From Amanita rubescens (lineage: Eukaryota; Basidiomycota; Agaricomycetes; Agaricales; Amanitaceae), in contig WION01000439.1 of assembly GCA_015039365.1 (NCBI GenBank), positions 1 through 44,124 on the forward strand: DNA of 44,124 nt. The letters are read 5' to 3'. Below, piece by piece: positions 4,890 through 38,009 of this stretch. Every line of letters begins with the position of its first letter. The first letter of the stretch is position 1. The position numbers were made by a program, and so were the translations under genes. Under the pieces are notes generated by a model. It was not told where the DNA came from. It worked only from the letters and a program-made list of their open reading frames with translations, and searched no databases.

Positions 4890-7800
4890 ATGTCGCAGTC
4901 GGAGGCTTCTAACACAAATGAATCATGTACGTTGCAATCTGCATACATCAACATTTACTAGTAGTAACTCTTCAAATTTCTCATCGTGTAGGCTCCGTTA
5001 ATATGCTCAAAGAGCGATACAAATGCCGCCATTTCCGTATTCTCATCATAGGAAGGGCCAATGCAGGCAAGACCACTATCCTTGAGAAGGTTTGTGGTGT
5101 GGGAAAGGGGACAAAGCCCATCGTATATGATCAAAATGGTATTGAGCTTGAAGGTATGCTTGATCTTCATCTGTATACTATGGGGCTGTGGTTGCCTTTT
5201 GACACCAATAATCAGAACTTTCATCAATGCATTTGGCACCATCGATGGAGGTGAGTAAACTTCTGCATAAACTTACTAGGATTGATATGCAATATTTTCA
5301 GCGAGGCATACACAATATAGAGGACCAGATTACATATGCTGGAAGTAACTTTATCTTCCATGATTCACAGGGATTTGAAGCTGGGGACAACAAGGAGCTT
5401 CAGGATGTTTGGAAATTCATTGAGAGGCGATCTGCTGCAATTGAAGTAGGAGATCAGTTGCATGCAATTTGGTATTCTTAATTTTTTTCTACATGGCCAT
5501 GGCCAGTTAGTCAACATTTTCATAGGTATTGTATACCCATGGATGGCTCTCGCCCCATTCTATCATCAGAACTTGAGTTCTTTACTAAAGGGACAGGGAA
5601 AGGTAAGCCATCACAAATAAGTCCAGTGCTTTTATTGATTTCATTTTTGTGTCCTAAATGGCATACCCACAGTCCCTTTGGTGAATGCATTCACCAAATT
5701 TGATGCTCTGGTGATTCAGGAATATGCTAAATTGAATGATGAACAAGATGGATCAGATAGGTGGGCTAAAGCTGAGGAAAAAGCTGACACTGTTTTCCAG
5801 GAGACATACCTTTCCAAAGTTTTAAATGTTCAATTTCCTCCAAAGGCATATGTGCACTTGCGAGGTGAAAATAATTAACATTTTTTGAATCATGAGAGAT
5901 ACTAATACAATGTTCAATAGACATGGATACACCAGAGATGGACTGTTCTGAATTGACTGAGAAAACTGCTGATGCAATTGATGATACCAGCCTATACAAG
6001 CTCTTTGTCTCAACACAAATGAACAATCTTAATCTTTGTGTCAAGTCAGCCCTTAAGTGAGAGTCACATTCCAAATTCCAGTGATAAATTTTGACAATTT
6101 TCAGACAAGCCCTAGTTAATCATGAGCCTTCATGGAGTCAGGTTATTTGGAATGCCCTCAACTGCTTTCCATACTTTTGGGTAAGCTGTAAATGCCTTTG
6201 AGAAGACTAGTAATGTTAAGCCCTGGCAAGTTCATCAAAAAAGTAAGTACTGTGCTTTTCATAGCCATACCTAAAACAGTAGATGTTCAAAAAATATGAA
6301 TTAGAATGTGAGTGCACTTTCACATGTTGCTGTAAATTTATTTTCTGAATACCATGGTGAAGGATGTGTGTAATTCTGCTCAACCTGATATGCTGACATA
6401 GTGATGCAAATTTCTTGAAAATAGCATTTTTTGATGAAAGTGAGCAATATTATAACTGCACCTGCAACCAGATCTAATGCAATAGACAACAGTGGGTAAG
6501 TGATGATGAAATATAACTGATGCCAATGAGGTCTGATTGTATCACCAAAAGCAAGTGCGTGAACCTGTCCCATTTCTAGTTCAGAATTCATGCCAACAAT
6601 TAGACTGTAAGTACTACTTGACATTTGGATATGTACATAAGGTGGCTCATTGTACCAGGAGGTGAGTGCTACAGTACCTATAGGGAAATCCTTCTTGTCA
6701 CATTAATGTGCAATACATATGCAGGAAGTAAGTGCTCTATTAAACTTATTTCTGCACATTAGTACATGCTGATATGCTTTCACAACCAAAAGGATGTCAG
6801 TGCACTAATCTTTGTATCTAATCAAGTCTCATTCCAAATTAACAGTATGTGAGTGTCATTCAATTTGATGCAAGGAAGTACTCTCATCATGTCTCTTCTG
6901 ATGATTAACAGCATGTGAGTAACATTACAGCATTTTAACAATGTCATCAATTGCATTCCATGAACAATAGGAAGTGAGTAAAGAATTTACATAGGCCCTT
7001 GGGTCTCATTTGCATCCCTCCATCCACATCAGAAAGTGTGTGAAGTATTGGTTTTATCTATTAGGCAAATATTTTATGGACATCCTATGACAAACAGTGG
7101 GTGGGTGAAATAAAATATTTAATCACAACATCACACCTGATTGCCAACAGTTTGTAAGTATTCTCTGACCCATGTCTGACTAGTACAGCCCATTATTAAA
7201 TATACATAGAAAGTTAGTGGCACTGCTTTTTTGTTAATGGACAGTCTTCTCAGAAATGATACCTGACCAACAGGAGGTAAGTAACAGTATCATCCTCTTA
7301 AGCTATTCTCATTCCATTACCTTTGATCACTAACAGAGAGTGAGTCATACTGTGCTTGTTTTTTGCATAGTGGCAGTGATCATCTAACCCCATGATGCCA
7401 TATGCAAAGAATGTAGGTGACACATTAGTTTATTTGCCAAAAAGTCTTACCACATCCCTTTCCATTGCTAACAGGAAGTAAGTGACACTGTACTCTTTTT
7501 CTTTCTCAGGTGTGCTGAGCACATTCTTTACACCCCAACCCTTGAACAGTATGTATGTAACAAGTGACATTGCACTTTATGAATGGCCATCTCATTGTAC
7601 TTCATATTCTCAACAGAAAGTGAGTGGCAATGTAATCTTTCCTGCCAGAGTCATCACATATTATATATGATCAACAGAAAGTAAGGCAACATATTTAATG
7701 AAGTATTCTTATCATATGCCCTCAGGAAGTGAGTAAAACTTCACTATTTTTCTGATAGGCAGTCTCACCACATGTTGTATCATATCCAAAGAATGTGAGT

Positions 7801-10251
7801 GATGCTTTATTTCCCAGTTGCACATCACATCACATTCCATTCAGTATGTGAGCAACCCCTTCTTTTCTCATATGGCTATCCTTTTCATACAATATTTAGC
7901 TTGTAAGCATCACTGTGATTTCACTGCTGGGCAACCTCATCACAATGCTCCACTATAACAGCAGGCAAGCAGCATAACATATCTGCTGGATATCTGCTGG
8001 ATGTCAAATCCCATGACCAACAGAAGGTGAATGCCACTTTCATCTAGCTGTCTTCTTTCCTTTCATCCCATATTCTTTAGGATGTGAGTGATGCTGTAAT
8101 TTTGTCTTCAAGGCAGTCTCAAAGTTGGACCTTTCAATTTCAGTATGTGAGTGAACTTCATTTGGTTCTCCCAGGTGACAGGCAGTCTCACCAACCCATT
8201 TCATGACTAACAGGATGTAAGTGAAGTTCCATCTGTCAGAAAGTTTGAGCATATCATGACCTGAACCATAGCTTGTGAGCCACCTTCCCTCTCTGACAGG
8301 AAGTTGTACAATTTTTACATATGTGATCCACAAGTTTGTAAGTGATATTATGAAGTAGTTTTATCACACACACAACTCATCCTTATGATCAGCTAGTAAG
8401 TGACATTGGACACTTGTCTAACACATTATCTCACATCTTGTGTCATGATTAAAAGGAAGCAAGTATCACTCTGCCTTTCATTTCTGGCAGTCTTATCTTG
8501 TCCAATCCTATTACAAACAGGGAGTGAGTGATATTGCACTTCTACAGATAGTGACACCACATATTCAATCTCCAACAGGAAGTGAGCCATTACACCTTTT
8601 TCAGGCAATTTTCTGTCTCATAAACATCAGAGTGTGAGTGACACAGTAATCATGTTTACTAGTTAGTCTTCACAACTCATCCAATAATCCATAGGATGTG
8701 AGTGAGGAAGCCACTTTTCCTTGCAATCAGTTTCATCACAACCCCTCTAATAATCCTCAGGCAGTGAGTACTAGCATTGCATTTCTTCTGCCTGCCAGAC
8801 CCATCATGTCTCATGCTATGATTGACAGTTTGTGAGTGACAATATGCTTTCATATGCTATACAGACTTGGCATCTTGTGATAAACAGATAGCAAGTGATA
8901 CCCTTCTTTCCTTCATCAGATACATCTCATCCTTTAATCACCAGTTGGTGTGTATCATGCTCTTTTGTCCAAGTAGTCACATTCAGCTCATGGCCAACAG
9001 GAAGAAGTAATGCTACAATTTTATGATCTATCCTGAGTGGCATTCCATTCACCTTCCTGAAAATATTCTACCAATGAATGCTAGTATGTATGTCATACAT
9101 ACAACACACATTTTGTTTATTCAGGCTGCAGTCTGATTTCATGACTGACAGGATGTAAGTATTTGTGTGCATATATCTGGTAGAGATTTCACCATAGGAT
9201 GACATTGACAACAGTTTGTAAGTTACTCATATCTGTCAAACTTGTAGACTCTCTTCTCTCATTCACCTGGTGATCAAAACAGGCTGTGAGAAATATTCTT
9301 TCTTTTTAACAATTACATGTCTCCATCTGGATTTCACAGCCAGGTGAGTGGGACACATCCTGAAAATATTCTACCAATGAATGCTAGTATGTATGTCATA
9401 CATACAACACACATTTTGTTTATTCAGGCTGCAGTCTGATTTCATGACTGACAGGATGTAAGTATTTGTGTGCATATATCTGGTAGAGATTTCACCATAG
9501 GATGACATTGACAACAGTTTGTAAGTTACTCATATCTGTCAAACTTGTAGACTCTCTTCTCTCATTCACCTGGTGATCAAAACAGGCTGTGAGAAATATT
9601 CTTTCTTTTTAACAATTACATGTCTCCATCTGGATTTCACAGCCAGTGAGTGGGACACATGTATAACATTTTAGATTTTTTTATGATGATACCACTGTGT
9701 ACAGATTGTGCAACACAACTTACTGTCATTCATAGCAATTTTTCTAATTTCTCCTCTGTTTAGGTAAGCACACAATTTAAGATGACTCAGCAGGCATCTT
9801 CATCTTCATGTCAGGTTGTAGGTCTAGTGCTGAACTGACCTTAGAATTTCACTCTTTGCCATCTTTAGGATGAAATTCTTGTGTTGTTTGGGGAAGAAAC
9901 AGATGATGGGATTTCCACAACTGTGAGATTCTAACTTTTATCTGGATTAATACATATATACATAGCTGATATTGGTTTGATTAGCCCATAGGCTGTCAAA
10001 TCTTAGCTAGTAATGCATCCTGTCTAATTTACTTTCTTACAAGCTGACACTTTCAAGCTATCCTCATCATTGTCAAGCAGGCATTCTGGGTGAAGATGAA
10101 GTCAATTTATGAATCAGTAATGGAAGCTTTGAAGCAGTTCAAGGAGCAGGGCAATGTTGAGAAAGTGAAGAATCACCTAAATTCTGCATTGCTACCTTCA
10201 GATCCAGATGATCTGTTTATGTTTCTGTATGATCAGATTTCCCATATTTGA
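4890..10251 (+). CDS. P-loop GTPase, copy 1, containing a giant microexon array
   Basis: Fungal GTP-binding protein of the G-domain type; partner and pathway unknown. Conventional exons: 4890-4926, 4992-5153, 5216-5250, 5302-5471, 5526-5602, 5673-5864, 5921-6056, 6105-6180 and a 12-nt exon 6231-6242 (FIKK). They sum to 897 nt and end in phase 0. G1 is GRANAGKT, G3 is DSQG (in FHDSQGFEAGDN), G4 is TKFD (NAFTKFDALV); HAIWYCIPMD is the usual core strand. The gene then enters the array of one-codon exons (separate entry). It emerges in ASSSSCQ (9794-9814), DEILVLFGEETDDG (9869-9922) and a 171-nt final exon (10081-10251) ending LYDQISHI. The same terminal exons occur in copy 2. About 440 aa if all microexons are used. 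The start gives MSQSEASNTNES, shared with copy 2. Splicing inside the array is inferred. Confidence 0.75.
6243..9773 (+). repeat. Tandem intron/one-codon-microexon array, copy 1
   Basis: About 56 consecutive units of 50-85 bases, each an apparent intron followed by a 3-nt exon: acceptor (CAACAG, TTAG or similar), three bases, donor (GTGAGT, GTAAGT, GTATGT; a few GCAAG). Examples: TGG at 6493-6495, TAT at 6846-6848, GAA at 7475-7477. Exceptions are a 15-nt exon 6425-6439 (HFLMK) and a 6-nt exon GAAGAA after 9000. All are multiples of three and phase 0. No triplet is a stop. Many introns share a mid-intron GGCAGTCTCA/T block (near 7758, 8111, 8180, 8486) and a TGACTAACAG or TGACCAACAG acceptor, so the units look like diverged tandem repeats. 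Relative to copy 2 it lacks eight units after 9006 and has a 303-bp duplication. The array separates the GTPase domain from the conserved C-terminal exons. Confidence 0.8.
9055..9659 (+). repeat. Near-perfect 303-bp tandem duplication inside array 1
   Basis: Two head-to-tail copies, 9055-9357 and 9358-9659, read as identical except for one base. Each holds five units with triplets TAT, GAT, TTT, GCT and CCA. The first copy reads CACAG-CCAG-GTGAGT, the second CACAG-CCA-GTGAGT, so the extra G makes the fifth exon 4 nt (or a directly abutting AG|GT site). Copy 2 of the array has this segment once, near 26400-26700, so the duplication is recent and specific to copy 1, unless it is an assembly artefact. 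Confidence 0.9.
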
Positions 10252-15686: not shown

Positions 15687-18600
15687 ATGTCGCAGTCAGA
15701 GGCTTCTATCACAAATGATTCATGTACATCGCAATCCGCATACACTACTAACATTTACTAGTAACTCTCATCGTAGGCTCTGTTAATGTGCTCAAAGAGC
15801 GATACAAATGCCACCATTTCCGTATTCTTATCATAGGAAGGGCCAATGCAGGCAAGACCACCATCCTTGAGAAGGTTTGTGGTGTGGCAAAGGGGACAAA
15901 GCCCATCATATATGACCAGAATGGTGTTGAGCTTGAAGGTATGCTTGCCAATCTTCACCAGTGTACTACATGGGGTTGGCACCCTTTTGACATAGATAAT
16001 CAGAACTTTCTTCATTGCATTTGGCACCATCAATGGAGGTGAGTAAACTGCATAAACTGTGCTTAGGATTGATATGCAATATTTTCAGCGAGGCCTACAT
16101 GATATAGAGCACCAGATTACTTACCCTGGAAGTAACTTTATCTTCCATGATTCACAGGGATTTGAAGCTGGGGACAACAAGGAGCTTCAGGATGTTTGGA
16201 AATTCATTGAGAGGCAATCTGCTGCAATTGAAGTTGGAGATCAGTTGCATGCAATTTGGTATTCTTTACTTTTTCTATATGGCCATGGCCAGTTTCAACA
16301 TTTTCTTAGGTATTGCATACCCATGGATGACTCTCGCCCCATTTTATCATCAGAACTTGAGTTCTTTACTAAAGGGACAGGGAAAGGTAAGCTGAGACAA
16401 TTTTCTGCTTTTATTGAATTTGGATAATGTGTCCTAAATGGGATGTTCACAGTCCCTTTGGTGAATGCATTCACCAAATTTGATGCTCTGGTGATTCAGG
16501 AATATGCAAAATTGAATGAAGAACAAGATGGATCAGATACTAGGTGGTCTAAAGCTGAAGAAAAAGCTGATATTATCTTCCAGGAGGCATTCCTTTCCAA
16601 AGTCTTAAATGCTCAATTTCCTCCAAAGGCATATGTGCGCTTGCAAGGTGTGAATAATTAACATTCATGATAGATACACACATCCTGATACAGTAAATTT
16701 CTTGTTAATCACTGACTCAACAGACTTGGATACACCAGAGATGGACTGTTCTGAACTGAGTGAGAAAACTGCTGATGCAATTAATGATTCCAGCCTATAT
16801 GAGCTTTTTGTCTCAACACAAATGAACAATCTTAATCTTTGTGTCAAGTCAGCCCTTAAGTGAGTGTCATAAAATCTCATATTCCAATTTCCAGCTATAA
16901 ATTTTGATAATTTTCAGACAAGCCTTGGCTCATCATGGGCGTTCATGGAGTGAAGTTATTTGGGATGCCCTCAACTGCTTTCCATACTTTTGGGTAAGTA
17001 TAAATGCCTTTGACAAGATAGAAGTTAAGCCCAGGCAAGTTCATCAAAAAGGTAAGTCCTGTGCTTTTCACAGATCAAATAGTAGATGGTAAAAAATATG
17101 AATCAGAGTGTGAGTGCACTGCCTTGCTGTAAAGTTATTTTCTAAATACCATGACAAATAGGATGTACATAATTCTGCTTAACCCTGGAATACTAATATA
17201 ATGCAATGTTGAATCTAGCATTTTTTGATGAAAGTGAGCAATATTATAACTGCACCTGCAACCCCATCTAATGCAATGGACAAAAGTGGGTATGTGATGT
17301 TCAGTGAATGATACCACTGAGGTCTGATTGCATCACCAAAAGCAAGTGCGTGTAACTTCCCCATTTCTAGTCACATAACTCATGCCAACCAACACAGACT
17401 GTAAGTGATACTTAACTTTCAGAAATGTAGATAGCTCATTGTACCAGGAGGTGAGTGCTTCTGCACTTATAAGCAATTCCTTTTTTCACATGATGACCAA
17501 TATGTAGGATGTAAGTTCTCTATTTCTGCACATACATGCACTCACTTTGCAACTGCAACAGGATGTCGGTACACTAATCTCGTACCCAGATGTTCTGCGG
17601 GCCGGTACCCGGGCGGAGCCTGAAGCGGAGGCAAAACTTTTCGCAAAAGTTTCGCGCCAGGCTCCTCCCTAGAACATCTGGTGCATTTCCCCTGGCAACA
17701 CTGCGCGCGATGTTACGGTCACATCCACGTGTTGTCGGACATGATATCATCCTTTCCTAGTTTGGGCGGAAAGCCTCCTAAACATTGTTCCTCCGTTGCA
17801 TGTACTACGTAGCTGCCTAATAGAATATTCCTAATAATGAATTCCCTACCCAGTGAAGACCCTGAAGACTTGCTTCTCTTGGACGAGGAAGAGGGCTTGT
17901 TTGACATGGATGAATTGATAGACTTCAGCCATGACGAGCCCGAGGATTGGGATGATCATATGGATGATCTCGAAGAAACCCCCTTGGAAGCCCCAATTGC
18001 CTATCAGAACACCCAGCATCTCAAATCTAGGCTGGCAGGAGCGGATGTTCTGTCGAAGGTCAAGAAAGTTATTAATTGTATGCAAAACGAAGGACTTAAC
18101 TTACCTCTGTTCCTGGATGCCGTCTTTTACGGCGACCCGGAATGTCACAATGATAGGGTCGTCCAGTACCAGCGAACAGCGCTTATGGTCAGCGACGAGC
18201 TCCCTGTCCTGTTTCAGCGCTGGTACCAGCCCCCGAGTCGGAGCCAAGGTCATCGGGGCCAGCGTCCGTTGGCAGCTACAAAAAGCGTAGTCAGCTTTGC
18301 TCGGAGCATCGTAAACAGGGAAATAGATGCCGAAATTAAACGTACCGCAAAGTTATTTGTGTCTGGCCCAGAGCTCCTGTCGAAGGAGCATATTCTTAGC
18401 CTGGATTTCCACACCCTAATCATTGAATGCCAAAATCGTGCACCTACAATGTGGGATTTGTTTCGGAAATCTGCATATACTTCTGAGCAAGAAGAACATA
18501 ATACTCGTAAGAATCCTGACATGGTCAGTCATCTCGTCCGTCATCCGAGCATAAAAGAAACTCACTTGTGTGGGAGCAGATTGTCCTGTCGATGATATCT

Positions 18601-21600
18601 CAATGTCATTACACAAGGTCTTACCGACGTGGGCGGTTGGCGAAGGCATGGGGAATTTATCTAAAAGCCTGTGGGATGTCAGCACGCGCTTTTGATGCCG
18701 TTCATTCGCTTGGACTCACCATGAGCCATAAATGGACTGCTGATGCCCTTCGGACGCTCTCAGCAAGTGCTCTGGAGGAAATTCGAGAGCTTGTTAAAAC
18801 TCAACCATTCTTCTTGTCTTATGACAACGCGAATGTTCCTCTTCGCGTATTCTCTCAACGGCTACACAACCAAAGTCATTTTCAAAATGGTTGTGCTGGT
18901 ACAGTGTGGGTAATACCTCGTGAAGCAGCCCTACCACAAGGAATAAATGCTGCACTGCAAGAATCTCGACGTGCCCCATCCGCATTCGATCTCACACCTC
19001 TGATTGATGGCGATCCAGAGACAGAAGAGCGCTGGCGTGCGCAATATATCCATCTAATCCTCGCAGTACTTTTAAATTCTCCAGAATTTCAAGATTATCC
19101 GGCTGCTCACCGGAAACATACATGTCTTTCAGCGCCACCTCCGGTTCATGAGCTACCCGCAGGCGAAGATTATCGGAATGTGCAGTATATGTTGGAAACT
19201 GCGCCTATTGAAGAGGCAAGCTATGACGGCAATGATAAGGTCATTGCCGAATGGTTCCGTCAGTTACGACTTGACTCAGATGCAGAGCAAAAACGTACCG
19301 CACTGCATCGTGTCCTGGTCTGTTGCGGGGATCAATTGACAATGGATCGACTGCGGGGTTTGTACAAATTCCGATCCGAGGATTTTAACTCGTTCGACCG
19401 CATGGACTACGTGGTCCTGGCAGCCGGTTGGTTTCATATGGTCATGGCATTTGCACAATCATTGTACAAGCAACACTACGGAAGTTCTGGTTCAGTCGGA
19501 CAGCTCCGTCATGCATTTGACCTCTTACATAAGAAGAAAATGTCATCCCCGGCTACGAAAGGACCATTCTGGAACGACCTTGATGAAGCCTTGCGACATG
19601 TTAGCGAAGCCCACTTTCGGGCATGTTGGCTGGAACTGACGGGCGCAAGTAAACTAGATGAATTGAAGAAAGAGTCCCCGCAGCAATTACGTGCATACGC
19701 CATCGAGATCCTTGACCGCTATGCATCTATGGCGGCACTGGATGGCCTTCGGGAACGGATGCCATCTGATAAACCGGATTTAGTTCAAGAAAACTGTATA
19801 ATGTGGAACATCAACATCTTAACGTACCTAGAGTTAACGGCTGCCATAAAGCAAGGAGATGTGGGGCGAATGGAGGATATGCTGCCCATCATACTTTTCC
19901 GTTTTGCTGGTGGCGGGAATTTCAAGTATACTGTCGAGATACTTGAATTGCTTCAAGGTTTGCGTAGCGAATGGCCCCGCGAGGTGCGAGACTTGGTACG
20001 GAATCACTGTTGGCTTGTAAACCGGGAGGGCCGACGAAACAGCTTTGTAGCTGTAGACCAAGCTCAAGAACAAAACATTAAGGATATCAAAGTGACTTAC
20101 CGTTCATTTGGTCCCGGTGCAAGCTGGAGTTACCTCCAGACTGTCTCGCCAGCAATACCAACTTTACGTGCTGTTCAACGGCATTTCGAGAGACAGTTCG
20201 GAACGCTGACACGAGGTACAAAGCACGGTGAAGTCAGCAAGGACGAGGATGTGAAAACATTAACAGATCATTACCAAGCAGCTCGGCTTTACTCAGATCA
20301 ACCAGGGCGGATACCCAAGGGCGGCAGTGGAGACTTGAAGTCCGTTACTGATTATGTGACAGCTGGAGCGGATGCATTGGAGAATGGCGATACGGTCGCG
20401 AAGTGGTGGAAGGCGCGGCATTTCGAGCGCTCAAATGTGCAAGAGTGGGACTCCGATTGAAGGCATCAATTCGTCAATACTTTATTCACATTTGGTACAT
20501 ACAGCTTGATAAAAATCTATATGTATTGTGTTTCCCTGCGGGTACCAGTCAGAAAATCTGAGTCGAACTGTTAAGCGCAATTGAACAACGAACCTCACTA
20601 CTGCGGCCACGTATTGTACCGCAACACACCCTGCTTCCCGTCGGGGTCTTGGGACATATTAGCTGACATGTGGAGATACGAGAACGATGGCGACGACGAG
20701 CCTGACGGTTGAGGTAATGGCTGAGACGGGGACAAGGCCAGGGGCTGTGCGCGATAAGGGGACTGCCAGTGTGCCGAGGAGGGCTGTGCGTGATAAGGGA
20801 GCTGCCAGTGTATTTGAGTGGGTATCAGATGGGAAGTGTTGCCAGTGTAACAGGCCAACGGCGTGGTGGGCGACGGCACAGATGCGAAGGAGTCGGACGG
20901 CAGGACGTAGGACGCAGGACAAGGTGGTGTGAAAGGGTCTGGGGCCCACAAGGTTGGAGGCATTACGTAGGATGCGGCTCGAGGTGGTGTGAAAGGGTCT
21001 GGCCACGAGGTCGGAGGCATTACAGATAGGGGCCCATGCGCAGATAGAGGGGCAACGTTCGGGGCGACGTTCTCCTTCTCAGCCACGTTCCCACCCTTCC
21101 CGCCCACTTGTTGTCCCTTTGCTCGCGACGTTCGCAGTTTCTTCGGTCGACTCAGACGCTCTTCTTCTCGGCGTCTCTTCTTCTCGACCTTTTTGGCCTC
21201 TTTAACGGCCTCTGCGATACGCCTGCGCTCCAGGCGATCTTCTTCCTTCTTCTGTTTCTCCGATACACGGCGCGTTCGCTCTCGGTCGTCAACAGCTTGC
21301 AAGACGGACAAGAGCTCTTCACCGTGACGAGCAGCTCTGTGCTGGGACCACCCTCCTACTTGAATCAAGTCGTTCACAGTTAGTATATTCGTTTTATTGG
21401 CAATATTGGAGATAACACGTGTCGGAAGGACTAGTTCATTGCTCCACGGGCGTCGAGCATATAGACGCCTCCATGTTCCTGCACGCCACTGCTGGAGAGA
21501 GTTTTGAGCATCGACAAGATGAGCACCTCGGCGTCGTAGCGGCAATAGGGAAGGACCACGTCGTTTGATCGGAGGAACACTTTTGTCGGGTGCGGTTTGA

Positions 21601-24600
21601 GTTTCGGCTTCTGAATCAGATTGAAGCTCATCTATGTCCACAGGTAGCTCGACATGGTCTGAAATGTCGTCTGGCGGAGGTGCATCGACTCCGTCAGCCT
21701 CTCTTTGGCAGTTGTCGCAACAGACATCGGGTGGCACTTGTCGCCTGTAAGTGGATAGATCAAATATATGATGTCTTTTACTTACCTGAACGAGGCACAC
21801 CAGAATCGTAATAAGTATCAACGACATCACGGCGACAACTGATTGCTTCAATCCACATACGCAGGCCGTCGTGGATCTCTTTCCGATATTGTGGAGTGTT
21901 GGTAGTAGTACCGTCCATTTTCTCTTCCTCGGGGGCCATGTCACCTTCAAGCTTCTTGCGTGATACTTCTTGAAAAACAGATGGCTGAACCATCAAGATT
22001 GCCTCTGCATTGATGGACTTGTCACGACCGGCTCGTCCACCTCTTTGTAACCATATATCTAGTGACTTAGGAACCGTAAACTGAACCACACGTGCAATGT
22101 GTGGTATATCACAGCCCTAATTATATTAGTTAGATTTGCGAAAAACCATTCCTCTGGCACATACCATCCCAGCAGCTTCAGTAGTAAGTAAGATCTTAAT
22201 TTCTTGATTACGGAAATGTTTCATAATTTTCTTTTTAGCACGGGGTGTACGGCGGGAGTTGTATACAGCTACTTTTTGGTGATATGACCGTGGTAGAAGG
22301 CCTCGGAGGTAAACCATGGCTGCCATTGCTAATGAAATATCATCAAAGAAGACCATTGTTGAGATGAGAGGGATAGTAGGCGTGTTAGAGTCTGCATCAT
22401 ATGAGGGAATAATGAACCGCAGACTATCTAGGTCTTTTCCACGTTCCATGTACGTGACCGACCAGGCAATGTTAGGCCGATCAACACCCAGCATTAAGTG
22501 ATAGGATGATGATGAGTCAACCTGCATAATTTTACGGGCATGGTCTAGAGATGATGGTGTAAGAGTTGCAGATGTGATAAGGACAGGAGCATGAGGTGCA
22601 AAAGCACGAATACCACCCAAATCAGCATATTCAGGCCGGAACTGTGGTCCCCATTGCGTGATACAGTGCGCTTCATCAACAACAAGGGAACACATGGCCT
22701 TCGAGAATTTGGCTGAACTCAATAACTTGCGAAAATCAGAATGTTTTAGGCACATTTCCGGTGACGACAGGATTACTTGATATTTGCCACTCTCAAGATC
22801 CTGAGAATAACTGAAGAAACCAGTAGCAATGAACATTGATGGAAATATACCTTATGGAGCTCCGGTGAATATGTCTCTCCATTAACAGCTACTGCAGATA
22901 ATCCCATATCACGGAATCGAGAGGCCTATTGCATAGATGAATCATATTTTGTATATTTGCACTACTACCTATGCTGATTCTACATACCTGGTCCTCCTCC
23001 AAGGCATTCAAGGGGGATATAATGAGGACAACCTTTTTGGGCTCAACAAACAGCGGCATCACAAAGGGCATGGTCTTTCCAGCCCCAGTCCCTGCTATAA
23101 CCGTACAATCAAGGCCAAGGAGAAGGGCCTCCGACACATCTACCTGCCATTCATATGCTTCTATTCCATTTGTACGACTTGATAATTCATCCCTGAGCTT
23201 TTGACGCGTTGCCGACGAAGAGTACTTGTACTTTTCAGCGAAATGCTGTCGTGCCTGTTCCAACTTGGCCGTAGATCTCCGTACTTGATCCAGATGGCGT
23301 CGTTGCCGCTCTAGCACCGCCGATGACATAAGGGTTATCGAGCGTGGCTTAAAAGGGTAGAGCGTTGATGAGACAGGCAGGGACGGACGCGTTTAGGCAT
23401 AAACGGTATCATGTGATGTGATTTCTAAGCTAGGTGACTCTAGGCGTGACGCGCGCGCAGTGTTGCCAGGGGAAATGCACCAGACGTTCTAGGGCAGCAT
23501 CGTGCTCAAAAGTTGCGCCAAAATATTTGCCTCCGCTTAATACTCCGCTCGGCTGTCTCCGCTGCCCCAGAACGTCTGGGAACGAGACTATCGGTACACT
23601 AATCTTTGTATGAAGTCTCATCAAGTCTCAGTTTAAACTAACAGTATGTGAGTGTCATTCAATGTGATACAAAGAAGAAGTAGTAGTCTCATCATGTCTC
23701 TTCTGATGATTAACAGCATGTGAGTAATGAGCAACAGCATTTTATGACCAACAATATCATCAAATTACATTCCATGAACAATAGGAAGTGAGTAGAGAAT
23801 TTATTGAGTCTCACTTGCATCCCACTGTCTGCATTAGAAAGTGTGTGAAGCATTGGTTTTATTAGCAAAGCAAACATTTATGAACATCCCATGACCAACA
23901 GTGGGTGGGTAATGCTTCATTTTATTAAACATAACATTTAATCACAACATCTTAACCATTGGCCAAAAGTTTGTAAGTAATAAGTATAACTGCATGTTTC
24001 TCTGAATCTCTGACTATTAAATATACATAGAAAGTTAGTGGTGCTGCTTGTTTGTTAATGGACAGTCTTAGAAATAATACCTGACCAACAGGAAGCAAGT
24101 CACAACAGTGTCATTTTCTTGAGCAATTCTCATTCCATTATTCCATCACCAACAGAGAGTGAGTCATACCATACTTGTTTTTCCACAATGGCAGTGATCA
24201 CCTAACCCCATGCCATATGGTGCAAAGAATGTAGGTGACACTTGACTTTTATTTGCCACCAAGTCTTACCACATTCCTTTCCATGACTAACAGGAAGTAA
24301 GTAACATTGTACTTTTTTTCCTGGAACATGCTGAACACATCATTTATCCCCCCTTTCTTTGCCAACAGTATGTGTGTGACATGTGACTTTTCACTTCATG
24401 AATGGCAATCTCATTGCACTTCATCATACATATGTATGCTGAACAGAAAGTAAGTGGCAATGTACACTTTCCTGCCAAGTAAGTTATGTATCACATATCA
24501 TCCATGATCAACAGAAAGTAAGACAGTGCTGCATATTTCATGAAGTATTTCTCATTGCCTTCAGGAAGTGAGTAAAACTTCACTATTTTTCTGGTGGGCA

Positions 24601-27278
24601 GTCTTACCATGTGGTATCATATTAGAATGTGAGGTTATTTTATTTTCCATTCACAATCACATCACATCCCATTCAGTATGTGAGCAACCCCACCTTTTCT
24701 CTCAAGGCAATCCCTTGTCATCTGCCACCACTACAATATTTAGCTTGTAAGTGGCACTGTGATCTCATCTGCTGGGCAAACTCATGGCCACATTACACCA
24801 CTGTAAACAGGAGGTGAGCAGCATAACATATTTGCTGGGTATTTGCTGGAAAGTTGCATCCCATGACCCACAGAAGGTGAATGTGACTTTCATCTGGTAG
24901 TGTTCTGTTTCATCAAATATTCATTAGGATGTGAGTGACTTTGTAATTTTGTCTTCAGGGCAATCTCATTGGACCTTTTCACATTACCCAGTATGTGAGT
25001 AAACTGCATTTGGTCCTCCCAGGCTATGGACATTCTCACCAATCCCATTTTATAACTAATAGGATGTGGGTGAACTTCCATCCATCAGACAGTTTCAGGC
25101 TTTCAGCATATCTCATGACATGAACTATAGCTTGTGAGCTACCTTTCTTCTTTTTCAGGAAGTTATACACATTTTTACATGTGTATGTAATCCAAAAGTT
25201 TGTAAGTGATGTCATGAGGCAGTTTCATCACACACACACAACTCATTCTTGATGATCAGCTAGTAAGTGACATTGAACAGTTGTCTAACAATGTCATCTC
25301 ATATATTGTGTCATGATTAAAAGGAAGCAAGTAGCACTCTACCTTCTGTTTCTGGCAGTCTAATCTTGTCCAATCCTATGACCAACAGGGAGTGAGTGAT
25401 ATTGCACCTGAGCACACTTTCACCAGATAGTGACACCACACATTCAATCTCCAACAGGAAGTGAGCAATTACACCTTTTCCTGCCATTTTCCCCTCTCAT
25501 AGCATATAATAAACAACAGGGTGTGAGTGACACATTAATCATATTTACTGGCTAGTCTTCACAACTCAATAACCGATAGGAAGTGAGTGAGGAGCCACTT
25601 TTTCTTGCAATCAGTTTCATCACAACCCCTCTAATAATTGTCAGGCAGTGAGTAGCATTGTATTTTCCACCATCACTTCTCATGTTATGATTAACAGTAT
25701 GTGAGTGACAATATACTTTCATATTCTATGCAAACTCATCTTATGATAAATAGACAGTAAGTGATACCATTCTTTCCTTTATTAAATAGATCTCATCCTG
25801 TAATCACCAGGGGGTATGTATAATCCACTTTTGTCTTCCATGTAATCATACCCAGCTCATGACCAATAGGAAGATGTAATACTACTATTTTACTATCTGT
25901 TCCCATTTTATCTTATTCCATTAATAACAGGGAGTGAGTGACATTCTCTTTTTCGAAGACTTGTGGAGTATCATGACTTGTCTGACAGGTAGTAAGCTCA
26001 CTTTGCTTTTACTTGCTTAAAAGTATAATCTCAGAGTCATCAACAGCAGGTAAGTGATACAGCACTTTTCAAAGCAATCTTAACCATTGTTTAATCCAAC
26101 AACCATGATAGCATGTGAGCAGCATGACACTTTTTGCTGCCAGGTGGTCTTAATAATTTGACATATTCCATGCCATGTCAACAGTATGTGAGTGACACCT
26201 TACTTTGATTCATTAGGAAGTTTCATAAATCCATTTCTGTGATCAATAACAGGTAGTAAGTAGCATTTTTTTGGCAAGCATGGGGCCTCATCACTCGATA
26301 TAATAAATAGTATGTCAGTGGCATTATCACACTGTCTTTTGCCAAGCTGTCTCATTGTATAAATGATGGATAGAATGTGAGTGGCACTGCATTTCATGTT
26401 CCTGTAAATATCCCACCAATGAATCCTAGTATGTATGTCATGCATAGCACATTTCTTTCATCCAGGCAGTAGTCTTATTATGACTGATAGAATGTAAGTG
26501 CCAATTTGTGTATATATCTAGTAGAGAGATCTCAGTGTAACATGACATTGACAACAGTTTGTAAGTCCTTCAAATTTAACTTGTAGAGTCCCTTCTCATA
26601 TTATCTGGTGCCAATCAAAACAGGGTGTGAGAAACCCTCATTCTTTTTAGCAATGCCATGTCTCCATCTGAATTTCACAGCCAGTAAGTGGATAGATGTG
26701 CAACATTTTAGATTTTAATGATGATACTACTGTGTACAGATTGTACAATACAACTTCCACTGTTCATTTATAGCAATTTTTCTAATCTTCCTTCTGTTTA
26801 GGTAAGCACATAATTCAAGATGATGGTTTAGCAGGCATCTTCATCTTCATGTCAGGTTGTAGGTCTAATGCTGAACTGGCCTTATAATTTCACCTTTGTC
26901 ATCTTTAGGATGAAATTCTTGTGTTGTTTGGAAAAGAAACAGATGGGCTTTCCACAACTGTGAGATTCTAACTTGTATCTGGACTAATGTAGTTAATATT
27001 GGTTTAATTAGCTCATAGGCTGCCAAATCTTAGCCAGTAATGCATCCTGCCTAATTTACTTTCTTATAAGCTGACACTTTCAAGCTATCCTCATCATTGT
27101 CAGGCAGGCATTCTGGGTGAAGATGAAGTCAGTTGATGAATCAATGATGGAAGCTTTGAAGCAGTTCAAGGAGCAGGGCAATGTTGAGAAAGTGAAGAAT
27201 CACCTAAATCCTGCATTGTTACCTTCAGATCCAGATGATCTGTTTGTGTTTTTGTATGATCAAATTACCCATATCTGA
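15687..27278 (+). CDS. P-loop GTPase, copy 2, with microexon array interrupted by a transposon
   Basis: Paralogue of the gene at 4890. Conventional exons: 15687-15723, 15777-15938, 16004-16038, 16089-16258, 16310-16386, 16453-16647, 16724-16859, 16918-16993, 17040-17051; 900 nt, ending in phase 0. G1 GRANAGKT, G3 DSQG, G4 TKFD are kept; the exon-3 peptide is ELSSLHLAPSME. The array follows, then DEILVLFGKETDGLSTT (26909-26959) and the final exon 27108-27278 ending FLYDQITHI. Comparing copies fixes the tricky 12-nt exon FIKK: the preceding intron differs in length (50 against 46) while the exon frame is kept. A 6-kb element lies in array intron 10. The left donor GTCGGT survives, so the gene could still splice, but that intron would be about 6.1 kb against about 65 bases for its neighbours. 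Expression may be impaired. Confidence 0.7.
17566..17580. repeat. 15-bp target-site duplication, left
   Basis: TCGGTACACTAATCT, repeated exactly at 23591-23605. The uninterrupted array 1 has the orthologous site once (GTCAGTGCACTAATCTTTG near 6795), which supports duplication on insertion. The exact edge is uncertain by a few bases because TCTCGT is shared by TSD and element ends. Confidence 0.8.
17581..17709 (+). repeat. Left terminal inverted repeat with internal palindrome
   Basis: Begins CGTACCCAGATGTTCTGCGG; its inner end GTGCATTTCCCCTGGCAACA is repeated inverted at the right end, as is AAGCGGAGGCAAA. It contains its own inverted repeat CCAGATGTTCT (17586-17596) and AGAACATCTGG (17671-17681), so the whole end could fold into a hairpin. 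Confidence 0.85.
17837..20460 (+). CDS. DUF6589-like protein of the TIR element (candidate transposase)
   Basis: Two exons, 17837-18523 and 18577-20460, joined in frame by a 53-nt intron (GTCAGT...GGGAG; a CAG three bases later is an alternative acceptor). About 856 aa. The N-terminus is strongly acidic (LLLLDEEEGLFDMDELIDFS). The C-terminal half carries the signature I associate with the basidiomycete DUF6589 family: PFFLSYDNANVPLRVF, VLVCCGDQLTMDRLRGL, MDYVVLAAGWFHMVMAFAQS, LRHAFDLLHKKK and HVSEAHFRACWLEL. The conserved acidic residues in YDN, GDQ and SEAH are spaced like a possible DDE/RNase-H-type catalytic set; that is inference. No zinc finger or membrane segment seen. It is convergent with the helicase and inside the same inverted repeats, which ties it to element mobility. 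Confidence 0.8.
20461..20597. other. Convergent 3' region between the two element genes
   Basis: Short AT-rich gap between two stop codons on opposite strands. It must serve as 3' UTR and polyadenylation region for both genes. No other gene. Confidence 0.6.
20598..23329 (-). CDS. RecQ-like DEAH-box DNA helicase of the TIR element
   Basis: ATP-dependent 3'-5' DNA helicase of superfamily 2, RecQ-like. Exons: 23329-22988, 22925-22851, 22800-22165, 22116-21786, 21736-20598; 2523 nt, about 840 aa. Motif I AGTGAGKT, motif Ia IISPLNALEEDQ, motif II DEAH followed by the RecQ-type CITQWGPQFRPEYADL, motif III TSATLTP, motif V TTEAAGMGCDIPHIARVVQF, motif VI QRGGRAGRD. A CCDNC cluster (about 21700) fits the RecQ zinc subdomain; the acceptor that keeps it in frame is GACAAG, eight bases past the first CAG. 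The C-terminal third is a Lys/Arg/Glu coiled-coil-like stretch followed by a Pro/Ser-rich tail, with no winged-helix or HRDC domain recognised. Probably helps the element transpose or replicate. Frames open throughout. Confidence 0.85.
23451..23590 (-). repeat. Right terminal inverted repeat with internal palindrome
   Basis: Inverted match to 17581-17709, with the middle diverged. Inner palindrome CCAGACGTTCT (23480-23490) and AGAACGTCTGG (23569-23579). The two arms differ from the left end by the same T-to-C type change on both sides, so within-end pairing is kept. Confidence 0.85.
23591..23605. repeat. 15-bp target-site duplication, right
   Basis: Exact copy of 17566-17580. The host array intron resumes after it (TTTGTATGAAGTCTC, matching 6810 in array 1). 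Confidence 0.8.
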
Positions 27279-27999
27279 CTCTGGTATGTTCTTCATTCCC
27301 ATCATACAACGCCTATGCAAGCTTCATTCTTAGGATAAAACTCCAATTGTTATCCTAATTTTGTCACCTTCAAGCTGTACCAACAACTTTTCTTGATGCT
27401 GATGTGTTTCAAATATGCTCTCTTTTGATGTACCAGTAGACTGTTACTATAGTTTCTATGGCTCTGGCAAAAATGCTTCTTGTTTGCGACAAACGCACCC
27501 ATTTGCAACCGAGGTGCAGCGTGCTATTTTCAATTCGAGCTTCGTATTGTAGACGGCGATCTGGATCAGTGAGGGGTACATCACCGAGTGCGCCGGCCCC
27601 GGCCCTTTTATCAAAACACCAGGAAACATTGAATTCAGGTTGATCATTGTTGTCTGATATTAGACATTGCAATCGAAGTCTGCGCGAGTCCTAACCTAAC
27701 GCTGCACCAACTGTGACTGACAGCTAAGCGCGATTTTTATCGGGCTTCAATCGACGCCACCGGCACCGGAGGCAAGATAACCTTTGACCGGCTGCGCTCC
27801 GACGAGATCCGCGGTGACATTGACAGATAGGGATGAACGCTTGAGCCTGTAAGTGGTAGCAGTGGAAATCCTGGAACAGTTTGTCGTGGTCGCATCACAG
27901 CCTCCGAGCGCTGAGCCGCCATCGTCATCTCCACGTGTGCCGCAGTGCGACCCGCAGTTCGCCAGCACCATTTCCCGTCACCGTCACCGGGTCACCACC
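27279..27999. other. GTPase 2 / USP intergenic region
   Basis: No gene seen. Homologous to 10252-10830 apart from a unit-2-specific insertion of about 65 bases near 27595-27655. The last part is the USP leader; an upstream open frame from 27853 overlaps the USP start in the same frame but lacks a good start context. Confidence 0.5.
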
Positions 28000-37592: not shown

Positions 37593-38009
37593 TGGGAATG
37601 ATCTGGTGAACGAGTGGTTATACTATTCTTTCTTCTTTCTATATTTTTCGTCGTTTTTCGTCGTTTTTCAACTTTTTCATCTTTTTCATCTTTTTCATCT
37701 TTTTCATCTTTTTATTATTTTCTTTCGATTTCTTTATCGGTATCCGGATTGGAAATATTATTACTTCTATCTGTATTCAAGTTGAAGTGAAATGATTAAA
37801 GGCTTGCGCAAGTCCAAGATCAGTGTTTACGATCAACTAGTATAACAGGAATTTATATATCAATACGGCAGGATCAAGTGCACAACGAGGGGTGGAAAGG
37901 GATGTCGCATGGGAAAATGGTAAGAGCTGCCAGTTGTACGAGTGAATGAATGTTTCTGGCGCCGCATATGCACCACGGGACGCACGCGGACAATTAGAAC
38001 CACATAATT
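37593..38009. other. 3' intergenic region between convergent genes
   Basis: Holds the kinase 3' UTR, a pyrimidine microsatellite and the F-box gene 3' flank. No gene. Confidence 0.6.
37645..37712 (+). repeat. Pyrimidine microsatellite (TTTTTCATC)n
   Basis: Two TTTTTCGTCG-type units followed by about five TTTTTCATC units, in the 3' flank of the kinase gene. Likely 3' UTR low-complexity DNA. Confidence 0.9.

Follow-up and report, generated by a model that had tools for sequence, protein, structure and literature searches.

In a 44,124-nt stretch of the genome of the basidiomycete Amanita rubescens (contig WION01000439.1 of assembly GCA_015039365.1, forward strand; hereafter referred to as the window), a GTPase gene that we term gene A very probably ends in a tail encoded by an array of predicted one-codon exons, which would join in the message into a segment of about 60 residues. 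Comparable tails occur in other GTPase genes and in NACHT receptor-like genes, and the most variable of them may act as recognition segments. A preliminary description of the window had reported a unit consisting of AG, three bases and GT that repeats on the plus strand through 6243–9773, and the unit is present as described: between 6181 and 9870, the motif AG-N3-GTRAGT (with its strict donor) occurs 30 times at a spacing of 3, compared with three times at most for each other spacing from 0 to 18. The intron-like stretches themselves open with GTRAGT or a close variant and finish in AG. The phenomenon is larger than this single gene. A second array, belonging to gene B, occupies 17.1–17.5 and 23.6–26.7 kb of the window, and a search of the 75.7-Mb assembly (786 contigs, with haplotype copies counted apart) uncovered many more. 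The layout of gene A, in a model merged from several parses and a reading of the sequence, is the following:

5003–6180, plus strand: G-domain (GTPase) part of gene A, with ordinary exons and introns, ending ..NCFPYFW in phase 0 (from the translation and from paralogous proteins including P0001)
6231–6242, plus strand: 12-nt exon (FIKK) ahead of the array, read from the sequence; locus L009 has a 12-nt exon at the equivalent place
6243–9868, plus strand: array A, with 54 exons of 3 nt, one of 6 nt and one of 15 nt, and introns of mostly 45–78 nt
6305–6307, plus strand: first 3-nt exon, AAT
6363–6365, plus strand: second 3-nt exon, GAT
6425–6439, plus strand: 15-nt exon (CATTTTTTGATGAAA)
6493–8947, plus strand: 41 consecutive 3-nt exons
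9001–9006, plus strand: 6-nt exon (GAAGAA)
9055–9660, plus strand: 303-bp tandem duplication within the array, two copies with a 99% match
9085–9645, plus strand: nine 3-nt exons, TAT GAT TTT GCT, the repeat TAT GAT TTT GCT, and CCA
9705–9707, plus strand: 3-nt exon ATT
9759–9769, plus strand: zero-length exon, with the acceptor TTTAG abutting the donor GTAAGC (9763/9764)
9815–9817, plus strand: last 3-nt exon, GTT
9869–9922, plus strand: ordinary exon after the array (DEILVLFGEETDDGISTT; DEILVLF), in phase 0
10081–10251, plus strand: last exon of gene A (AFWVKMKSIYESV...DQISHI, stop)

The 41 consecutive exons at 6493–8947 read TGG CAA ACT GAG GAA GAT TAT CAT GAA AAA TGG TTT AAA GAG AGA AAT GAA TAT AAA AAA GAA (codons 1–21) and AAT TAT CTT CAG AAG GAT TAT GAT CTT TTT CTA GAA GGA GAA AGT GAT GCA TTT ATA TTG (codons 22–41). 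Upstream of the array, the segment 5003–5155 shows a weak Arf / MMR_HSR1 match; near its end, the 303-bp duplication doubles four units and could be an assembly artefact. The merged model bears out the earlier estimate of about 56 microexons and the statement that only exons of 3, 6 or 15 nt occur within the array. It likewise agrees with the proposed phase 0, since the preceding exon ends in ..PYFW and the following one opens with DEILVLF, both in that phase. None of the 3-nt exons in the model spells a stop, as had been noted before—a test that is weak on one gene and strong on the 24 loci described below. A looser motif scan picked up a TGA in A and, in B and L010, two TGA plus two TAA triplets, all of which overlap another unit by a 4-base shift. 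Additionally, nine of the 11 loci read (A, B, L009, L010, L013, L014, L015, L023 and L024) have a zero-length exon, with AG directly on GT, toward the 3' end of the array, which may represent either a recursive splice site or what is left where a codon was lost.

The broader evidence comes from 24 loci, i.e., arrays A and B plus 22 stretches of 10 kb picked by two-unit patterns—a non-random sample, selected for arrays. All counts used in the tests were obtained with a free-length parser, trained on splice signals alone and allowing any exon length, which returned 1,015 exons of exactly 3 nt; among the exons of up to 30 nt, 1,050 of 1,064 were multiples of 3. Run on the reverse complement, it yielded 8 exons of 3 nt, and on reversed sequence 12. 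Separate parses of the 24 loci gave 28–86 one-codon exons per locus. Stops are altogether missing from the one-codon exons (0/1,015), with 76 expected from base composition (log10 probability of −34). Across the same loci, a spacing of 3 occurs 874 times and any other spacing between 0 and 12 no more than 49 times, the second most frequent being spacing 0 (49). Third bases are strongly skewed: A in 487 cases, T in 442, G in 82 and C in 4 (A or T in 929), with many amino acids written with nearly one codon, while the 261 codons read from the gene's ordinary exons in A end in any of the four bases. Codon choice in the one-codon exons thus looks bound by the donor site. Phase-forced parsers tend to merge or misplace weak introns, giving exons of 36–87 nt, stretches of 18–78 nt and oddities such as a TGA triplet in L019 and L022 and a GAGTGA exon in L026; the strictest version dropped the first part of array A.

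Genome-wide, AG-N3-GTRAGT was counted 13,550 times, against 4,712, 4,605 and 4,857 times for the neighboring spacings 4, 5 and 6, whose mean it exceeds by about 8,800; the reversed spacing-3 pattern was counted 6,944 times. Two-unit patterns gave 28 and 49 matches, compared with 0 and 0 for their reversed versions. A chance origin of the arrays is ruled out by the reversed-pattern, reverse-complement and shuffled controls. An assembly artefact is also unlikely as their source: the arrays lie on many contigs, and the near-allelic loci L010 and L035 (99.86% identity over 4,838 bases) carry the same codons.

We then consider whether the codons reach the message. The NCBI model P0001, a paralog of gene A on a 451,917-bp contig equal in length to the one carrying L031, ends ..CVKSALK, ahead of the array. 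Among the matches listed (120 of 928), some JGI proteins lie on contigs that barely exceed their own reading frame. P0057, a protein of 478 amino acids on a 1,486-bp contig, contains 'DWFESADDAAGKEREYYDDGIHSGGYGYYGGKKISEKERDHRRDFVEREI' without interruption; because the ordinary introns are missing as well, we infer that its source is a complementary DNA (cDNA) or a copy of one. The codons of L009 were parsed from DNA before the protein was retrieved, and a 44-codon parse—likewise made without the protein—aligns with P0057 at 80% over 46 columns (9.7e-23, in a small local search). When a stretch of 66 residues from L009, hand-completed with P0057 in view, was searched against 5.8 billion proteins (three candidates), P0057 was the sole find (E = 7.7e-29, 83%), and 51 of 62 positions of the hand-completed peptide are kept in it. 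Moreover, a spliced alignment of L009 and P0057 over 3.57 kb places 79 residues and 52 introns with 58 identities and a score of 262, its last ten residues being misplaced, whereas 20 shuffled cores score 93 ± 13 (best, 117) and the reverse-complemented DNA scores 24. Since codons read from DNA match an uninterrupted protein, the array codons of L009 are very likely to be spliced and translated. Parts of other arrays are matched by P0042, P0089 and P0020 (best blastp E values of 6e-9, 2e-10 and 3e-6, respectively, in small local searches). The earlier proposal of a spliced message that carries a peptide with one residue per exon is therefore supported: exon lengths are divisible by three, stops are lacking, codons are conserved and, most importantly, an uninterrupted protein holds the L009 peptide.

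Comparisons between copies indicate that array A is old, with codons largely conserved and better kept than its introns, and that young arrays behave in the reverse manner. Between A and its paralog L031, 1 of 129 exon bases is changed as compared with 74 of 2,628 other bases, and 42 of 43 codons are identical (counting the 6-nt exon as two). Between A and B, 27 of 37 triplets are identical, with 10% codon differences, and the introns are 75% identical. In seven genes with the shared opening W-F-E-(Q/K)-G, codons 1–9 diverge by 0.071 per base and their introns by 0.146. Farther down the same seven genes, the introns (reciprocal best pairs, and thus selected for likeness) are 6% apart and the codons 55%, with 20 of 121 codons identical. 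The pattern is sharpest in L012 and L026, where the median intron divergence is 0.000 and the codons diverge by 0.53 and 0.61 per site. In these two arrays, units whose introns differ by no more than 3% have a codon in common no more often than expected by chance (0.26 vs 0.27 and 0.16 vs 0.17, respectively). Intron-alike pairs do share codons above chance in L016 (0.24 vs 0.11), L018 (0.26 vs 0.20) and L019 (0.20 vs 0.10). Close copies behave similarly, with L017 codon counts and its downstream flank excluded from the comparison: once optimally aligned, L032 and L033 are 12% apart in their codon bases and have a further 8 units gapped, with 1.9% in the introns and 0.2–0.5% in the flanks, and in L012 and L034 the codons are 15% apart, plus 17 gapped units, with introns at 0.7% and one flank at 0.5%. 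At the protein level, the JGI entries P0027 and P0040 have 276 of 289 residues in common ahead of the array and 87 of 92 beyond it, and inside the array 37 of 61 (plus 21 gaps). Such codon variety amid near-identical introns points to selection for change or to directed mutation.

The genes hosting these arrays belong mainly to one family. A G-domain match was found for gene A and 20 other loci of the 24, and L017 and L018 are NACHT genes. The L018 frame matches NPHP3_N (3.4e-26) and NACHT (6.9e-13) with the array downstream; no ankyrin family was found among the Pfam matches of this frame. In one array family, all four copies retrieved lie about 1.3 kb downstream of a NACHT match, and a NACHT domain followed by a variable C-terminal tail, in the style of fungal NOD-like receptors (NLRs), is a feature of L018 and its copies, not of gene A. 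Several distinct intron families are represented among the 24 loci, one of which spans 16 of them: 15 G-domain genes and L020, where only the C-terminal part was matched. Furthermore, a two-unit array match at G000:C605:4608-4692 (minus strand) adjoins a NACHT match at C605:6036-6503 (minus strand).

Since every intron of roughly 60 nt comes complete with a donor, a branch-like stretch and an acceptor, intron definition is the natural reading, with each intron presumably being spliced singly. Two introns that share a 3-nt exon could not be occupied by spliceosomes simultaneously, and neighbors would have to be removed in turn. The arrays would grow by tandem duplication of a unit comprising one codon and one complete intron, such that the frame is never shifted, and identical introns would supply the homology for gain, loss and exchange of units. 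Recombination within these introns, together with selection for variety, would then generate hypervariable segments in GTPase and NACHT receptor-like proteins. Going by their hosts and their variability, the variable tails may serve in recognition, as WD40 repeats do in fungal NLRs. More tentatively, and with the balance tilting somewhat toward doubt, the arrays could constitute a codon-by-codon repertoire engine: a satellite of one intron plus one codon at the tails of GTPase/NACHT sensors, acting as a lymphocyte-like diversity generator for non-self recognition in mushrooms, with an origin separate from the truffle system. According to this proposal, the introns would be kept identical for free recombination, exchange, gain and loss would always be in frame, the codons would be driven to vary, and splicing would wipe the satellite out of the message.

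Among the rival explanations, an insertion of the introner type, with an intron family placed between all the codons of a repetitive coding sequence, fares best, although we consider it rather unlikely. Codon variety would be ancestral and the introns recent, which fits the finding that unrelated codons of L012 and L026 are flanked by identical introns, as well as the several intron families of the 24 loci. However, it leaves the 3-nt, phase-0 spacing unexplained; the near-identical L032 and L033 already differ in codons and unit number; and intron variants run in contiguous stretches of units (L012 and L018), as tandem duplication predicts. Less probable still is a non-coding satellite that is spliced out cleanly and tolerated because each repeat pairs an intron with a sense triplet in frame. 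Uniform arrays are indeed tandem copies with near-identical introns, and broken copies exist (L018 and L009), but seven loci retain the nine codons that open the W-F-E-G-K block (0.071 vs 0.146 in introns), and P0057 preserves most of the hand-completed L009 peptide. The weakest rival—a single long intron excised step by step through recursive splicing, with triplets as mere spacers that never enter the message, as the preliminary description had suggested in the alternative—was rejected as the main reading and is highly improbable, for, in spite of the zero-length exon and of spacing 0 as the second commonest, it calls for a spacing of 0 where 3 is observed and accounts neither for the avoidance of stops, nor for the L009 peptide in the uninterrupted P0057, nor for codons conserved over introns in A/B and A/L031.

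Several observations weigh against the interpretation of the arrays as translated one-codon exons with codons selected to vary. The comparison of A with L031 is by itself not significant (3.6 changes expected, 1 seen). A protein search with the tail peptide of gene A gave five candidates, none of them significant, and no protein with this tail was found; for the family, by contrast, the segment is present in a homologous protein, P0057. The RNA origin of P0057 is deduced from its missing introns (its source label is 'jgi'), and a retrocopy would look alike. Reversed patterns at spacings 4–6 (7,875, 7,857 and 6,717) outnumber the forward ones, making the genome-wide background uncertain and the surplus dependent on the background chosen, and the reversed sequence yields 53 exons of 9 nt, its commonest short length. 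Three consecutive 4-nt exons within L018 4670–7300 (12 nt in total) put stops in frame, either because this copy has decayed or because it is spliced differently, and a one-base disruption of the frame relative to paralogs lies just past the L009 array; therefore, some array copies are not intact. Adjacent units share codons above chance in L012 (0.38 vs 0.27) and L018 (0.60 vs 0.20)—a sharing that fits the prediction of tandem duplication—and the near-allelic L010 and L035 show no codon differences as far as the stretch reaches. In view of both observations, codons are not always free to vary. Finally, codon change could stem from directed mutation rather than from selection.

Codon-sized exons have a precedent. 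The nank (NACHT-ankyrin) genes of Tuber melanosporum are reported to contain tens of 3-bp microexons (PMC4986451, PMC3689799 and PMC10197012, citing Iotti et al. 2012), and alternative splicing of these microexons has been reported as well. The earlier statement that no gene with dozens of microexons in tandem is known is accordingly outdated; codon-sized exons in tandem are a subject of PMC3689799 and PMC4986451. The truffle resembles Amanita in having tens of one-codon exons per gene (54 predicted in gene A) and, as a mycorrhizal fungus, in placing them in receptor-like genes, with NACHT genes among the Amanita hosts too. It differs in being an ascomycete with a NACHT-ankyrin host, whereas the Amanita arrays occur in a basidiomycete and mainly in a G-domain family, with predicted 3-nt, phase-0 exons by the thousand. 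The Amanita arrays also include uniform ones that combine near-identical introns with differing codons.

Further parallels are found in repeats of fungal NLRs. The WD40, ANK and TPR repeats (e.g., het-d and het-e of Podospora) undergo concerted evolution with a few hypervariable codons per unit (PMC4986451, PMC12222747). They share with the Amanita arrays near-identical units, varying codons and a C-terminal position in NACHT proteins; their unit is a protein motif, while that of Amanita is a complete intron plus one codon, a DNA repeat of which splicing would leave very little in the message. Schistosome micro-exon genes, with exons of 3–81 bp, introns of up to 5 kb and secreted products (PMC10526429), are similar in their many very short exons and variable products, and dissimilar from the Amanita units, the latter having introns of mostly 45–78 nt, uniform one-codon units and a GTPase host. 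Introner-like elements of fungi form families of near-identical introns (PMC4457414). Near-identical intron families are a likeness with the Amanita arrays. Introner-like elements are dispersed through many genes; the Amanita introns, unlike them, stand in head-to-tail arrays with one codon between copies. No report of one-codon exon arrays in Amanita or in GTPase genes was found in the open literature, with few subscription papers covered, and their absence from print is unproven. The Amanita case joins codon-sized microexons with hypervariable repeats in another phylum and mainly another host family; what is new relative to the truffle is the phylum, the main host family and the layout of a codon within a satellite.

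If the interpretation in terms of one-codon exons is correct, a single public mushroom genome would contain thousands of them (the 13,550 strict-motif sites and the surplus of about 8,800 giving the scale), and at least the NCBI model P0001 stops short of its array. The fungal spliceosome would cope with dozens of successive 3-nt exons, and it could be tested directly how small an exon can be and in which order introns are removed. Arrays whose exons differ more than the surrounding introns reverse the usual rule and, if they are indeed expressed as predicted, would hint at how fungi may diversify their recognition proteins.

Within the window, the array of gene B is split in two, as follows:

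15699–17524, plus strand: first half of gene B, a paralog of A (85% DNA identity) that includes the first units TGG CAA ACT GAG
17525–23590, plus strand: about 6 kb without similarity to gene A, splitting array B between two units
23591–27432, plus strand: second half of gene B, with 46 exons of 3 nt and one of 6 nt, followed by the C-terminal exons

The insert contains an open frame matching DUF6589 (18568–20457, E = 3.3e-124) and, on the minus strand, helicase pieces (HRDC, DEAD and Helicase_C), and is perhaps a mobile element. Elsewhere in the window, short T-rich tandem repeats with periods of 9, 18 and 27 were observed at 37624–37732.

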